From assembly GCF_900115825.1 (NCBI RefSeq), contig NZ_FOXW01000003.1:124001-188000 (forward strand): a stretch of DNA of 64,000 nucleotides. The letters are read 5' to 3'. Both the position numbers and the translations under genes were made by a program. Origin of the DNA: Desemzia incerta. GTDB lineage: Bacteria; Bacillota; Bacilli; Lactobacillales; Carnobacteriaceae. The notes beneath the pieces were generated by a model. It saw only the letters and a list, made by a program, of their open reading frames with translations. It ran no database searches and was not told the origin of the DNA. Every line of letters starts with the position of its first letter. The stretch's first letter is position 1. Below are positions 17,455 through 28,133 of this stretch, in pieces.

Positions 17455-18153
17455 ATGGAATGGAGTTACCAAGGACAAAATGGCCCAGAGTATTGGAGCC
17501 GATTATGTACAGATTTTAAAAGGGCAGAAGAGGAAGCCTCATGGCAATCTCCTATCTCTTTGAACACAGCAGCAACTCGTCAAGAACCTAAAAAAGACGA
17601 TACGATTTTATTTAAAAAAGAAAAAGTCAAAATAAAAACTGACTTTTTCAATCATACGGTCCATTTATCACCAGCAGAAGGCAACGAAGCTTCTGTAGTT
17701 TTCCAGGATAAAATGTACGTATTACAAGACATCCATGCACATTTACCAAGCGAACATATAATAGATGACCATTCTTTCGAAATGGAGATCCATTTTGTGT
17801 ATCGTTCTGACGATGATCAATTATTGGTGTGCGGTGTCATGGGACAATCTGATTACGGTGCTGTATCGCCTTTATCAGGAGATTTGTACAATCGATTTTT
17901 GAAAGAAGACTCACTAAAAAAACACTACACGCTTAATCTGGATTTAAATGTATTGATTCCTGACGATTCATCTTTTTATCATTACAGCGGATCACTGACG
18001 ACACCGCCAACAATGGGACCAGTCACGTGGATCGTTATGAAACAGCCTATTTCTTTACCGACTGACTTTGTTAAAGCATTTGAAAAAGTCATTGGTCAGA
18101 CTAATCGGCCATTACAACCGGTTAAAGAGAGAACGGTCTGTTTTTATCATTGA
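17455..18153 (+). CDS. Alpha-class carbonic anhydrase, no signal peptide
   Basis: A 232-residue alpha carbonic anhydrase interconverting CO2 and bicarbonate. The N-terminal GPEYW and QSPI motifs, the zinc ligands His94 and His96 (IHAHLPSEH) with His113 (MEIHFVY), and the late YSGSLTTPP segment are all present, so the site looks complete. Unlike most bacterial alpha enzymes it starts directly in the mature domain (MEWSYQGQNG) with no export signal, which suggests a cytoplasmic enzyme supplying bicarbonate for anabolism. GAGGTG lies 8 bases before ATG. It appears monocistronic. Confidence 0.92.
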   Translation: MEWSYQGQNGPEYWSRLCTDFKRAEEEASWQSPISLNTAATRQEPKKDDTILFKKEKVKIKTDFFNHTVHLSPAEGNEASVVFQDKMYVLQDIHAHLPSEHIIDDHSFEMEIHFVYRSDDDQLLVCGVMGQSDYGAVSPLSGDLYNRFLKEDSLKKHYTLNLDLNVLIPDDSSFYHYSGSLTTPPTMGPVTWIVMKQPISLPTDFVKAFEKVIGQTNRPLQPVKERTVCFYH

Positions 18154-18176: not shown

Positions 18177-18205
18177 TTGACAGTTATTCACTGGAAGCGT
18201 ACTAT
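18177..18205 (+). promoter_or_regulatory. Promoter of the ABC importer leader transcript
   Basis: Consensus TTGACA at 18177-18182, a 17-bp spacer and TACTAT at 18200-18205. The predicted start near 18212 gives a short 5' end before the Shine-Dalgarno of the first leader ORF. It is the only convincing promoter between the carbonic anhydrase and the importer. Confidence 0.7.
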
Positions 18206-18241
18206 TGATTTACTATCATTTTAACGAAGAGGAGATTCAAC

Positions 18242-18304
18242 ATGAACCAACACTATCGCACTGTCCAACAATTACATATGGATTGGCAAAGCCAAAATAG
18301 ATAG
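18242..18304 (+). CDS. Putative 20-residue leader peptide 1
   Basis: GAAGAGGAG lies 7 bases before ATG 18242 and the frame reads MNQHYRTVQQLHMDWQSQNR, then TAG. It contains one Trp (codon 18284-18286) and five Gln codons, all CAA. The stop codon overlaps the arm AGGTTG (18303-18308) of a possible antiterminator, and the Trp codon sits in a small hairpin (TTGGC-AAA-GCCAA). A ribosome paused at Trp would leave the antiterminator arm free, while one at the stop would cover it. This is the layout of an attenuation leader; its function is inferred from geometry only. Confidence 0.6.
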   Translation: MNQHYRTVQQLHMDWQSQNR

Positions 18305-18370
18305 GTTGATTTATGAAAAATCATAGATACAACCTTCAGTGAACTGAACTTGTATCTATGTTGGTTTATT
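18303..18370 (+). promoter_or_regulatory. Putative attenuator: antiterminator versus terminator 1
   Basis: Terminator: arms 18322-18332 and 18350-18360 form a perfect 11-bp stem, extended inside by TTCAG-TGAA-CTGAA, and followed by TTGGTTTATTT. Antiterminator: AGGTTG (18303-18308) pairs with CAACCT (18330-18335), helped by GATTT-ATGA-AAATC, and uses the last bases of the terminator's left arm. The two structures exclude each other. Confidence 0.55.
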
Positions 18371-18390
18371 TGAGTCTACGATCAAAGCAT

Positions 18391-18430
18391 ACCCGCATAG
18401 AGTAATCTTATTCTATACGGGTTTTTGTTT
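18391..18430 (+). terminator. Leader terminator 2
   Basis: ACCCG (18391-18395) with CGGGT (18418-18422), extended inward by an ATAGAGTAA/TTATTCTAT helix with one mismatch and one G-U pair, then TTTTTGTTT. It lies inside the importer leader. Confidence 0.7.
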
Positions 18431-18433
18431 GTC

Positions 18434-18476
18434 AAGAAACAGTCCCGCGCCTAGGCGAAGACTGTTTCTTTTTTTT
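18434..18476 (+). terminator. Leader terminator 3
   Basis: AAGAAACAGT (18434-18443) with ACTGTTTCTT (18461-18470), GC-rich inner part, then a T run to 18476. A possible alternative pairing of CGGG (18418) and GTTT (18427) with AAAC (18437) and CCCG (18444) would break both this and terminator 2. Confidence 0.75.
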
Positions 18477-18499
18477 ATTTATTTGAAGGGGGATAACAC

Positions 18500-18559
18500 A
18501 TGATCAAGCTGACTAAACGATGGCGAAGCCGAGTTGATGTACTAGCGTATTACATTTAA
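18500..18559 (+). CDS. Putative 19-residue leader peptide 2
   Basis: AAGGGGGGA lies about 8 bases before ATG 18500 and the frame reads MIKLTKRWRSRVDVLAYYI, then TAA, whose last bases run into the AAAGGAGG that serves the substrate-binding protein gene 13 bases on. Its TGG-CGA-AGC-CGA stretch matches TGG-CAA-AGC-CAA of leader ORF 1 at 10 of 12 bases, so both share a Trp-x-Ser-x segment and a GGC/GCC mini-hairpin. It could couple translation of the importer to passage through this Trp codon. Coding status is inferred from the ribosome binding site, the spacing and the resemblance. Confidence 0.5.
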   Translation: MIKLTKRWRSRVDVLAYYI

Positions 18560-18572
18560 AGGAGGAAATGAC

Positions 18573-19562
18573 ATGAAAAAAATGATTGGCTTCATCGCTA
18601 TCTTAACGATTTTATTAACTTATGCTTTTATTTCCGATGTACGTTCCACGACGGAGACAGCACAAAAAGATTTGCCAGTAGTAGGACTATTGCAACTAAC
18701 GAGTCATCCCGCTTTAGATTTAATCTCACAAGGGATCATTGATGCATTGAACGAGGAAGGATTTGTAGATGGGGAAACCATGATCTTAGATTTCCAAAAT
18801 GCTCAAGGAGACCAAAGCAACTTAAATTCAATGAGCACTCGATTTGTGAGTCGAGATGCGGATATCATGATCGGCATCGCCACACCAGCTGCTCAAGCAT
18901 TGGCAAATGCTTCTTCTGATATTCCAATCGTTTTAGGCGCTATTACGGATCCAGAAGCGTCTAATTTAGTGGCCAGTAATGAACAACCAGGTGGAAATAT
19001 TACTGGTGTCAGTGATGCAACTCCAATAAAAGAGCAACTGAATTTATTGAAAGATTTGCTGCCAGACGCCAAAAATATTGGTATTTTGTATTCTTCCAGT
19101 GAAGACAACTCAATCGTTCAAGGGAAACAAGCTGAAGAACTGGCAAAAGAACTCGGTTTTGAAACAACGACCATGACCGTGTCTTCCACAAATGATGTTG
19201 CTCAAATCGGTGCTGCTTTGGCTTCTCAAGTGGATGCTATATGGGTTCCGACCGACAACACGATTGCAAGTGCAATGAATACACTCGTGTCAGCGACAGA
19301 TGCTGAAGGGATTCCGATTATTCCAGCTGTAGATACGATGGTAGAGCAAGGAGGATTGGCGACTGTAGGATTGAATCAGTATGAACTGGGCAAATTGGCT
19401 GGTGAAATGACCGCAGCCATTCTGAAAGGCGAAATCGAGCCCGCAACGAGTCCGATTCAGTATTTGGAACAAGGAGATATTTTTATCAACCAAGAAAAAG
19501 CTGCAGAGTTAGGCATTACTATTCCGCAAAGCATCTTAGAACAAGCAGTCAACATAGACTAA
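18573..19562 (+). CDS. ABC importer substrate-binding protein, TrpX-like (PF04392 type)
   Basis: A 329-residue periplasmic-binding-type protein of the ABC_sub_bind family, which in streptococci includes TrpX. After an N-terminal hydrophobic segment (about residues 4-20) come two similar lobes with PVVGLLQLTSHPALD, PIVLGAITDPEA and GGNITGVSD, motifs typical of the family. There is no lipobox cysteine, so the protein is either held by its uncleaved N-terminal helix or released, which is unusual for a Gram-positive binding protein. It heads a three-gene operon with permease and ATPase. Tryptophan as the ligand is a family-based guess. Confidence 0.85.
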   Translation: MKKMIGFIAILTILLTYAFISDVRSTTETAQKDLPVVGLLQLTSHPALDLISQGIIDALNEEGFVDGETMILDFQNAQGDQSNLNSMSTRFVSRDADIMIGIATPAAQALANASSDIPIVLGAITDPEASNLVASNEQPGGNITGVSDATPIKEQLNLLKDLLPDAKNIGILYSSSEDNSIVQGKQAEELAKELGFETTTMTVSSTNDVAQIGAALASQVDAIWVPTDNTIASAMNTLVSATDAEGIPIIPAVDTMVEQGGLATVGLNQYELGKLAGEMTAAILKGEIEPATSPIQYLEQGDIFINQEKAAELGITIPQSILEQAVNID

Positions 19563-19586: not shown

Positions 19587-20480
19587 ATGGACTTAATCGT
19601 AACGGCCACCTCGCAAGGTCTCTTGTGGGGAACAATGGCATTAGGCATTTTTATTACTTATCGTATTTTGAATTTACCAGACATGACGGCTGAAGGTTCC
19701 TTTCCACTAGGTGCAGCCATCACTACTCAACTGATCATTAATGGAATGAATCCATTTCTAGCCACTTTTATCAGCTTTTTAGTCGGCATGCTGGCGGGAT
19801 CCATTACTGGATTTTTGATCACTAAAGGAAATGTTCCAGGTTTACTAGCCGGAATCTTAACGATGACGGGTTTGTATTCTATTAATCTGCGCATTATGAA
19901 TCGAGCTAATTTAAGTTTATTGGGACAGACACGTGTAACAGATATTTTTAAATCTTTAAATTTACCCAATCAATTCGATGCTATATTTTTAGGGTTGGCG
20001 ATCGTTGTCATCATGATCATGCTGCTAGCTTTGTTCTTTAAAACAGAACTTGGACAAGCAGTCATTGCAACTGGAGATAATGAAAAAATGGCTCGTGCAA
20101 TGGGAATCCCTACTAATCGCACTAAAATTATGGGGTTGATGCTTTCTAACGGAATCATCGCTATGGCTGGTGGATTGATTGCTCAAGACAATGGTTACGC
20201 AGATATCAGTATGGGCATTGGGACCATCGTTATTGGTTTAGCCGCTGTTATCATAGGCGAAGTGGTTTTTGGTAATTTGACCTTTATCAACCGTTTGATC
20301 TGTGTCATCCTAGGAGCGATCGTTTACCGATTGATTATTTTATTAGTTATTTTGATTGGCTTGAACCCGAATGACTTGAAATTGATCTCCGCAATTTTGT
20401 TAGCGATTTGTTTAGCATTACCAAGTATCCGCACGGCATTAAAATTGAACTTCTTCATTGGAAAGGAGCGTGTAGAGTAA
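19587..20480 (+). CDS. ABC importer permease, TrpY-like
   Basis: A 297-residue branched-chain-type (BPD_transp_2 like) permease with eight or so membrane segments, beginning MDLIVTATSQGLLWG and carrying the ATGDNEKMARAMGI cytoplasmic loop that contacts the ATPase in this class. GAGGG precedes ATG 19587, 24 bases after the binding-protein gene. The stop codon TAA shares one base with the ATG of the ATPase gene, so the two are translationally coupled. It works with the flanking genes as one importer. Confidence 0.9.
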   Translation: MDLIVTATSQGLLWGTMALGIFITYRILNLPDMTAEGSFPLGAAITTQLIINGMNPFLATFISFLVGMLAGSITGFLITKGNVPGLLAGILTMTGLYSINLRIMNRANLSLLGQTRVTDIFKSLNLPNQFDAIFLGLAIVVIMIMLLALFFKTELGQAVIATGDNEKMARAMGIPTNRTKIMGLMLSNGIIAMAGGLIAQDNGYADISMGIGTIVIGLAAVIIGEVVFGNLTFINRLICVILGAIVYRLIILLVILIGLNPNDLKLISAILLAICLALPSIRTALKLNFFIGKERVE

Positions 20481-21289
20481 TGACTGATCAGCCTGTATTA
20501 AGTTTAAAAGAAATTTCCAAGACCTTTCAAAAAGGAACCGCAAATGAAAACCACGTGTTAAAAGCTTTATCTCTAGATGTAAATAAAGGAGATTTCATTA
20601 CGATCATTGGTGGAAACGGATCCGGTAAATCGACTTTGCTGAATAGTATTGCTGGAAATGTTTTAGTTGATTCCGGACAAATCAACATCAACGATGACGA
20701 TGTAACGAAGCTGAAAGAAGAGCGAAGAGCTGGAAGAGTCGGCAGAGTGTTCCAGGATCCTTTGATGGGAACAGCACCTCGTATGACAGTGGGAGAAAAT
20801 CTCGCTATTGCGTTAAGAAGGGGACAGCGCAGAACCCTTAAATTTGGTTCTTCCGCTAAAGAACAAGACTATTTTAAATCATTATTAGAGCCGCTTGGAT
20901 TAGGACTGGAAAATCGTTTGACGGCAGAAATGGGGTTGTTGTCTGGAGGGCAGAGACAATCGATCACGTTATTAATGGCTACGATGAAACGTCCAGAATT
21001 GCTGTTGCTTGACGAACACACAGCTGCTTTAGACCCTAAAACAGCTGAGACAATTTTATCTTTGACCAATCAGATCGTTGAACAAGAACAATTGCCGACA
21101 TTAATGATCACTCACAATATGCAAGACGCATTATATTACGGCAATCGAATGATTATGATGAATAGAGGACAAGTAGTTGTTGATGTCAGCGGCGAAGAAA
21201 AGGCACAACTGACTGTTCAAGATGTTATGGAATTATTCCAGAAAGCTACAGCTGGAAATCAATTTTCAAATGAAATGCTGTTAGGTTAA
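20480..21289 (+). CDS. ABC importer ATP-binding protein, TrpZ-like
   Basis: A 269-residue ATPase with Walker A GGNGSGKST (residues 44-52), Q-loop RVFQDP, signature LSGGQRQ, Walker B LLLLDEH and a His switch in MITHNM. ATG 20480 is used because AAAGGAG lies upstream and it overlaps the permease stop by one base; the longer frame back to 20408 lies inside the permease and is unlikely. It ends the operon, with a weak hairpin about 50 bases downstream. Confidence 0.93.
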   Translation: MTDQPVLSLKEISKTFQKGTANENHVLKALSLDVNKGDFITIIGGNGSGKSTLLNSIAGNVLVDSGQININDDDVTKLKEERRAGRVGRVFQDPLMGTAPRMTVGENLAIALRRGQRRTLKFGSSAKEQDYFKSLLEPLGLGLENRLTAEMGLLSGGQRQSITLLMATMKRPELLLLDEHTAALDPKTAETILSLTNQIVEQEQLPTLMITHNMQDALYYGNRMIMMNRGQVVVDVSGEEKAQLTVQDVMELFQKATAGNQFSNEMLLG

Positions 21290-27927: not shown

Positions 27928-28100
27928 ATTTGTACTAGACTATACCTTCTGCCCACAACATGAAGAGCGCTCCTATAGCAAATTTGGGCAATTTGCTTAG
28001 GCAGTGCTACGCTTATTCAGCGCAGCCCCAGTACATTAGCACTTCGGCGATAATTCCTTTCAGATACTCTTACTCTTAATTACCGCGACCTCTACATCAC
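27928..28100 (-). ncRNA. Lysine riboswitch (L box)
   Basis: Read on the minus strand, the leader contains in order TAGAGGTCGCGG, AAGAGTA, CTGAAAGG, ATCGCCGAAG, ACTGGGG, GCTGAATAAGC and a closing GCTCTTCATG. This matches the core order of the Bacillus lysC lysine riboswitch (TAGAGGTGCG, AAGAGTA, CTGAAAGG, GTCGCCGAAG, CTGG, ATTGAATAAAT). P2 forms from GCGGTAATT with AATTATCGC, and P1 from TAGAG with CTCTT. P3 is short. It should sense lysine and promote termination at 27893-27927. Confidence 0.88.
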
Positions 28101-28133
28101 ATTGAATAATATTCAGTTCATCAACAGTTACAA

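Follow-up and report, generated by a model that had tools for sequence, protein, structure and literature searches.

The window analysed here, a stretch of 64,000 nucleotides from Desemzia incerta, encodes a predicted tryptophan importer, and the question raised by this locus is how the leader in front of the importer genes controls their transcription. The genes, all on the plus strand, are trpX, coding for the tryptophan substrate-binding protein (18573-19562; 447.6 bits with NF041285, cut-off 390), trpY, coding for the permease (19587-20480; PF02653), and trpZ, coding for the ATPase (20480-21289; PF00005; the listed ORF begins at 20408, and the likely ATG at 20480 is an inferred start). An earlier note on this DNA had proposed attenuation of the trp-operon type for this importer, and the comparative data described below support this proposal. 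We put the probability at roughly 0.9 that the leader is a ribosome-mediated transcription attenuator, with charged tRNA-Trp as the signal sensed; stalling of the ribosome, the order of folding and termination in the cell are inferred. The case is made by conservation, covariation, geometry and the match between leader codons and downstream genes, all of which are computational results, and regulation as such is untested. Immediately upstream of the leader, an alpha-type (eukaryotic-type) carbonic anhydrase is encoded (17455-18153; PF00194), and elsewhere the window contains a match to the lysine riboswitch (27957-28102, minus strand; 72.9 bits).

Organization of the leader

All the features of the leader lie on the plus strand. 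The promoter of the earlier note, TTGACA-N17-TACTAT (18177-18205), matches the consensus in 10 of 12 positions; its assignment rests on the consensus match alone, and such sites are no more frequent in the leader region than in shuffled sequence. The Shine-Dalgarno sequence GAGGAG (18229-18234), which has counterparts in nearly all homologous leaders, precedes ORF1 (18242-18304), a 20-codon leader peptide, MNQHYRTVQQLHMDWQSQNR, in which the proposed stall codon is the Trp codon at 18284-18286, located 18-19 nt upstream of the antiterminator arm.

The remainder of the leader is best described as a series of segments, most of which have two potential partners. Segment 2 (18303-18316) overlaps the ORF1 stop codon and is the 5' arm of the 2:3 antiterminator, and segment 3 (18321-18335) can pair with either segment 2 or segment 4. 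The predicted antiterminator (18303-18316 with 18321-18328 and 18330-18335; -15 kcal/mol, z -5.8) had been noticed earlier as a 6 bp pairing of 18303-18308 with 18330-18335; it is real, covaries and overlaps the stop, but is longer than was then thought. Segment 4 and its tail span 18350-18363, where 18350-18360 pairs with segment 3 whereas 18355-18360 and 18362-18363 pair with segment 5. The resulting 3:4 hairpin (18322-18332 with 18350-18360; -16.6 kcal/mol, z -5.4) is followed by TTGGTTTATTT. The earlier note took this hairpin for the competing terminator, a role that we reject because the U-tract is missing here and in most of the relatives; it is a relay hairpin.

Two tandem terminators follow, as had been anticipated. 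Segment 5 (18391-18402), the 5' arm of terminator A that alternatively pairs with segment 4, and segment 6 (18418-18430), consisting of the 3' arm and the U-tract and alternatively pairing with segment 7 (18437-18447), form terminator A (18391-18431; hairpin 18391-18422, z -5.9). Terminator B (18434-18478; hairpin 18434-18470, z -5.1) is the 7:8 hairpin with its own U-tract. Both are parts of a chain of mutually exclusive pairs. Between terminator B and trpX lies the second short ORF of the earlier note, ORF2 (18500-18559), encoding MIKLTKRWRSRVDVLAYYI, which includes a Trp codon (18521-18523). ORF2 is real: at this position, 13 of the 18 Carnobacteriaceae leaders have an ORF that follows a Shine-Dalgarno sequence and contains an RW pair. 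In another family, the counterpart reads SDW(E/D)W (the loci examined include L148, L154, L156, L157 and L164). The role of ORF2 is unknown and no pairing partner was found for its region; a second Trp-dependent step is possible.

The leader is a borderline member of an orphan riboswitch candidate family

The leader matches the Rfam family RF04312 over its full length at 18320-18432, with terminator A at the end of the match, at 58.9 bits against a gathering score of 59 (E 6.6e-8), and a relative from the same genus exceeds the cut-off with 59.2 bits. Matches were found in 213 of the 398 Lactobacillales genomes. The RF04312 model starts at the P1 helix (3:4), downstream of the upstream ORF (uORF), which therefore had no role in the collection of the leaders. 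In total, 122 leaders were usable. Three loci without a fitting uORF, probably false positives (L114, L115, L226), were set aside, and L213 was left out because of its proximity to a contig end; L113, a clostridial, Phe-coded leader located before a gene of the NSS transporter family, is counted in this otherwise Lactobacillales set.

RF04312 is the trpB motif (SRC-39-1) of Narunsky et al. 2024, who, in the passages on the motif available to us, rank it among the strong riboswitch candidates that lack a known ligand, with more than 900 members, most often located before an uncharacterised ABC transporter (PMC11109978). In the same passages, an amino-acid-related ligand is put forward as a speculation, and neither a protein factor nor a classic attenuator is excluded. 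As published, the motif resembles the window in having P1 (3:4), terminator A (5:6) and the 4:5 antiterminator, which occupies the right shoulder of P1, and in its location before ABC transporters or trpB; a uORF, the 2:3 arm, a relay between tandem terminators and recoding are absent from those passages.

The earlier note remarked that Firmicutes usually employ a T-box or TRAP in such positions and that no T-box sequence was visible. The latter holds: the window has no match to the T-box family RF00230 that reaches the gathering score, nor was there any among the weak matches of its leader. The former requires qualification, given the wide distribution of RF04312 in Lactobacillales and the lineage-specific use of the T-box. 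Control by one of these systems is usual in other Firmicutes, trpXYZ of Streptococcus suis has been shown to be T-box-controlled (PMC9382623), and we detected T-boxes in five TrpX leaders of one other family, none of which match RF04312. From these leaders and the S. suis case, we infer that the attenuator and the T-box substitute for each other by lineage. For trpXYZ in the window, control by a T-box or TRAP is virtually ruled out, with the reservation that neither TRAP repeats nor the TRAP protein were searched for.

The Trp codon is invariant and its position is fixed

An attenuator of the kind considered here has to include a short ORF that contains codons of the regulated amino acid, and the leaders meet this expectation, as far as can be judged without a demonstration of translation. 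An ATG ORF that is preceded by a Shine-Dalgarno sequence and ends near segment 2 is present in 119 of the 122 leaders, the other three having a GTG start or a weak Shine-Dalgarno sequence, and Trp is found near the end of the ORF in 121 of the 122, the exception being L113. Among the 118 leaders that could be aligned, which were selected for having the ORF, the frame starting with the SD-preceded ATG is open across the Trp codon in all 118, compared to 0 and 2 for the other two frames. Across Lactobacillales, the conservation of ORF1, the Trp codon, the arms and both terminators far exceeds chance. The original observation of the leader, including its coordinates, was sound.

Trp at the stall codon is the only residue that is invariant in the aligned leaders (118 of 118), whereas the residues preceding it vary freely. 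The caution in the earlier note that Gln or another amino acid might be sensed falls because no residue other than Trp is present in every leader. A point against attenuation is that the single Trp codon of ORF1 in the window is a weak signal compared to the two of E. coli trpL; a second Trp codon is present three codons after the first in 81 of the 118 leaders.

The geometry of the ORF bears on another potential mechanism, an arrest peptide similar to TnaC, in which free tryptophan or another cofactor bound in the exit tunnel would stall the ribosome at the stop codon. The conservation of the W-Q dipeptide near the end of the ORF, with CAA following TGG in 102 of the 118 leaders, is compatible with such an arrangement, which would, however, require conserved nascent-chain residues and a fixed distance to the stop. 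Neither is observed: the positions upstream of W, those expected to face the tunnel, show no conservation, and the stop is located 2 to 10 codons after W and varies in its distance to segment 2 (sd 5.9 nt), whereas the distance from the Trp codon to segment 2 is nearly constant (median 18 nt, interquartile range 18-18, sd 2.0). A constant distance from W to the arm combined with a mobile stop is the pattern demanded by stalling at a codon and not the one that arrest at the stop would produce. In addition, the relatives described below have runs of His, Tyr, Phe or Leu in place of W, and an importer would be expected to respond to scarcity of its substrate, not to excess. An arrest peptide thus appears scarcely plausible.

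Mutually exclusive helices and a proposed relay to two terminators

The covariation analysis that had been proposed for the leader arms supports most of the helices. In 69 diverse leaders, 10 of the 13 pairs of 2:3 show two-sided changes, with 57 cells changed on both sides compared to 15.5 +/- 4.2 after shuffling (0/500), and the slid controls collapse; 3:4 and 5:6 covary likewise. The signal for 4:5 is weaker (0.183 vs 0.149 +/- 0.008), with one slid control equally high; the bases involved are also constrained by pairing with segments 3 and 6. An alignment-free swap test, in which the energies of pairing with own partners were compared to those with the partners from other species, without correction for phylogeny, favored own partners for 2:3 (-12.4 vs -9.9, p 9.5e-14) and for 4:5 (-13.6 vs -12.2, p 1.4e-10), and the outcome for both was similar in Clostridia (tested without L288 and L287, which were left out because a fitting ORF or P1 was not found). 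The same test rejected the classical 1:2 pairing, for which own and swapped energies were equal. The end of ORF1 does pair with the strand right after P1, a pairing that would be blocked by a stalled ribosome and that, we infer, may contribute to the terminated state.

For the most distal alternative pair, 6:7, the swap test gave -12.9 for own and -9.4 for swapped partners (p 5.1e-17), and a third hairpin followed by a U-tract is present in 96 of the 109 leaders. One could still argue that only the first part of the leader switches, terminator B together with segments 6-8 being an ordinary backup terminator without a relay: in the window, 6:7 is a split helix of only -10.6 kcal/mol, and a U-tract pairs readily with A-rich arms (-7.2 for shuffled sequences). 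However, the preference for own partners and the conservation of the third hairpin speak against this, and a constitutive terminator B would shut the operon in every state. We consider a mere backup terminator rather unlikely. Taken together, covariation and swap tests indicate an antiterminated state consisting of 2:3, 4:5 and 6:7 and a terminated state consisting of 3:4, 5:6 and 7:8, as the mutual exclusion of antiterminator and terminator arms in an attenuator demands.

Partition functions calculated for the window with RNA ends at 18402-18412, i.e., inside terminator A, agree with the earlier suggestion that a ribosome stalled at the Trp codon frees the arm whereas one at the stop, located at or near segment 2, covers it, as does the 18 nt spacing. 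A ribosome blocking at Trp yields probabilities of about 0.94 for 2:3 and about 0.98 for 4:5, whereas one at the stop yields 0.83-0.89 for 3:4 and 0.17-0.27 for 4:5. After the completion of segment 6, terminator A dominates at equilibrium in nearly every state, so the switch must be kinetic, with the choice made during transcription, as in the known attenuators.

Under the attenuation model, a shortage of Trp would stall the ribosome when its A site holds the Trp codon (18284); segment 2, lying beyond the front edge of the ribosome, would remain accessible, so that 2:3 could form. Segment 4 would then be free to take segment 5 away from terminator A, and segment 6, released in turn, would take segment 7 from terminator B, letting the RNA polymerase enter trpXYZ. 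With ample Trp, the ribosome would reach the stop and cover segment 2, which would allow 3:4, 5:6 and 7:8 to form, and transcription would be expected to end at either of the two tandem terminators.

The scaffold is recoded in accord with the downstream gene

The same scaffold, with the arms kept and the codons changed, was identified in 41 of the 196 genomes of the clostridial order that includes genome G417, with up to four copies per genome and scores of 38-58 bits, all under the RF04312 cut-off. The codons of these leaders agree with the downstream genes, which were named using NCBIfam and Pfam: HHH(H) precedes hisS or hisZ-like genes, YYxSYYR and FFFSFFR precede NSS transporters, LLLLANLR other NSS transporters, FFFSFFS or YYFSYYS genes of the BrnQ family, and VVFNSQFR TrpY-like permeases. 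In the Lactobacillales, loci of a second Rfam family, RF02863, encode ...YYFSYFR before aroE (16), DAHP synthase (1) and TrpX paralogues (12 and L310). Across the versions, Trp codons go with TrpX (110) or TrpB (6), His codons with hisS/hisZ (9 of 10), Leu codons with NSS transporters (8), and Tyr/Phe codons with aroE, DAHP synthase, TrpX paralogues, NSS, BrnQ and ABC permeases. Codons located about 18 nt from the arm would thus be predicted to set the amino acid that is sensed.

The TrpX family itself is split along these lines: 9 of 9 tested proteins behind Trp-coded leaders score above the NF041285 cut-off of 390 (407-478 bits), and 9 of 9 behind Tyr/Phe-coded leaders score below it (269-347 bits). 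The genome that contains the window has a second, Tyr/Phe-coded copy of the scaffold (L310/L337, G000:C8:240272-240463, minus strand; 72.9 bits), with an ORF, read by eye and preceded by a weak Shine-Dalgarno sequence, ending in ...NNFYFSYFRRCL, and a downstream TrpX paralogue below the Trp cut-off, which we predict to be a Phe/Tyr importer.

These data weigh on the riboswitch hypothesis, according to which the region in or around P1 binds a ligand, either tryptophan or another amino-acid-related compound. The published status of the motif as a strong candidate and the sequence conservation of P1 and the terminators are in its favor. However, the conserved positions are those of the arms of the exclusive helices, and the P1 loop region is variable, so that no conserved aptamer for a single ligand is apparent. 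Moreover, the uORF codons follow the downstream gene in Trp, His, Tyr, Phe and Leu versions built on one scaffold, which a single aptamer cannot explain. This pattern fits leader-peptide attenuation and argues strongly against a single-ligand riboswitch, which we consider very unlikely.

Several leaders deserve mention in their own right. The Trp-coded leader L163 lies before an OppA-like peptide-binding protein, which suggests that peptide import is controlled by Trp. BrnQ-family carriers, named branched-chain transporters, are found behind Tyr/Phe-coded leaders at L241, L248, L253, L257 and L258 and may have an aromatic substrate. No trpX or trpB was found just downstream of the Trp-coded leaders L116, L201, L119 and L147; L116 is followed by a reverse transcriptase gene, probably that of a group II intron.

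Significance and comparison with known systems

RF04312 and RF02863 probably comprise one family of mobile, recodable leader-peptide attenuators in Firmicutes, in which a codon at a distance of about 18 nt from a fixed arm sets the amino acid sensed, a chain of exclusive helices extends to two tandem terminators, and the leader codons can be used to assign the substrates of transporters. If they are one attenuator family, the orphan riboswitch candidate and the "sRNA" have both been misclassified, and leader-peptide attenuation offers a testable answer for each. The specificity of such a scaffold evolves by codon replacement, comparable to the specifier of the T-box. If true, the leader codons predict the substrates of transporters that sequence families do not resolve, namely, TrpX paralogues, NSS and BrnQ members. 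The data further suggest that, outside the T-box lineages, lactic-acid bacteria commonly control the import of Trp by classic leader-peptide attenuation.

RF02863 (Enterococcus sRNA 2410) was catalogued as an sRNA of Enterococcus faecium and yielded two transcripts on a Northern blot (PMC5593968), whereas the loci that we identified have leader peptides of the Tyr/Phe type. The order of the segments is the same as in the window, which scores 31 bits with the RF02863 model over 18288-18487 (cut-off 61). We infer that two tandem terminators could produce the two transcripts.

Leader peptides rich in His have been predicted in Firmicutes by Naville and Gautheret 2010 (PMC2965389) and by Rodionov 2022 (PMC9413887), being reported in bacilli, Peptostreptococcaceae and Erysipelotrichales. 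Like the scaffold described here, these have a short ORF with a His run before a hisS paralogue, hisZ or the his operon, together with a terminator and an antiterminator; they were not linked in those papers to the trpB motif or to Trp, Tyr, Phe or Leu versions, and their sequences were not compared with the scaffold. In Staphylococcus aureus, ilv is controlled by a Leu-rich leader peptide. No published uORF for the trpB motif and no aroE leader peptide were found in the literature searched, in which subscription journals are thinly covered. Leader-peptide attenuation as such has long been known; to judge from this literature, the novel elements are the uORF with Trp in the trpB motif, the merging of this motif with RF02863, the series of recoded versions and the two-terminator relay.

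The closest parallels are the trpL and hisL attenuators of E. coli, in which a leader peptide contains the regulatory codons, two Trp codons in the case of trpL, and the stalled ribosome frees an antiterminator arm. The leader in the window shares the peptide with its regulatory codon and the arm freed by stalling. Unlike in the E. coli attenuators, the 1:2 pairing is not clear, the 3:4 hairpin is a relay rather than the terminator, and the additional exclusive pairs 4:5 and 6:7 would relay the signal to two tandem terminators.
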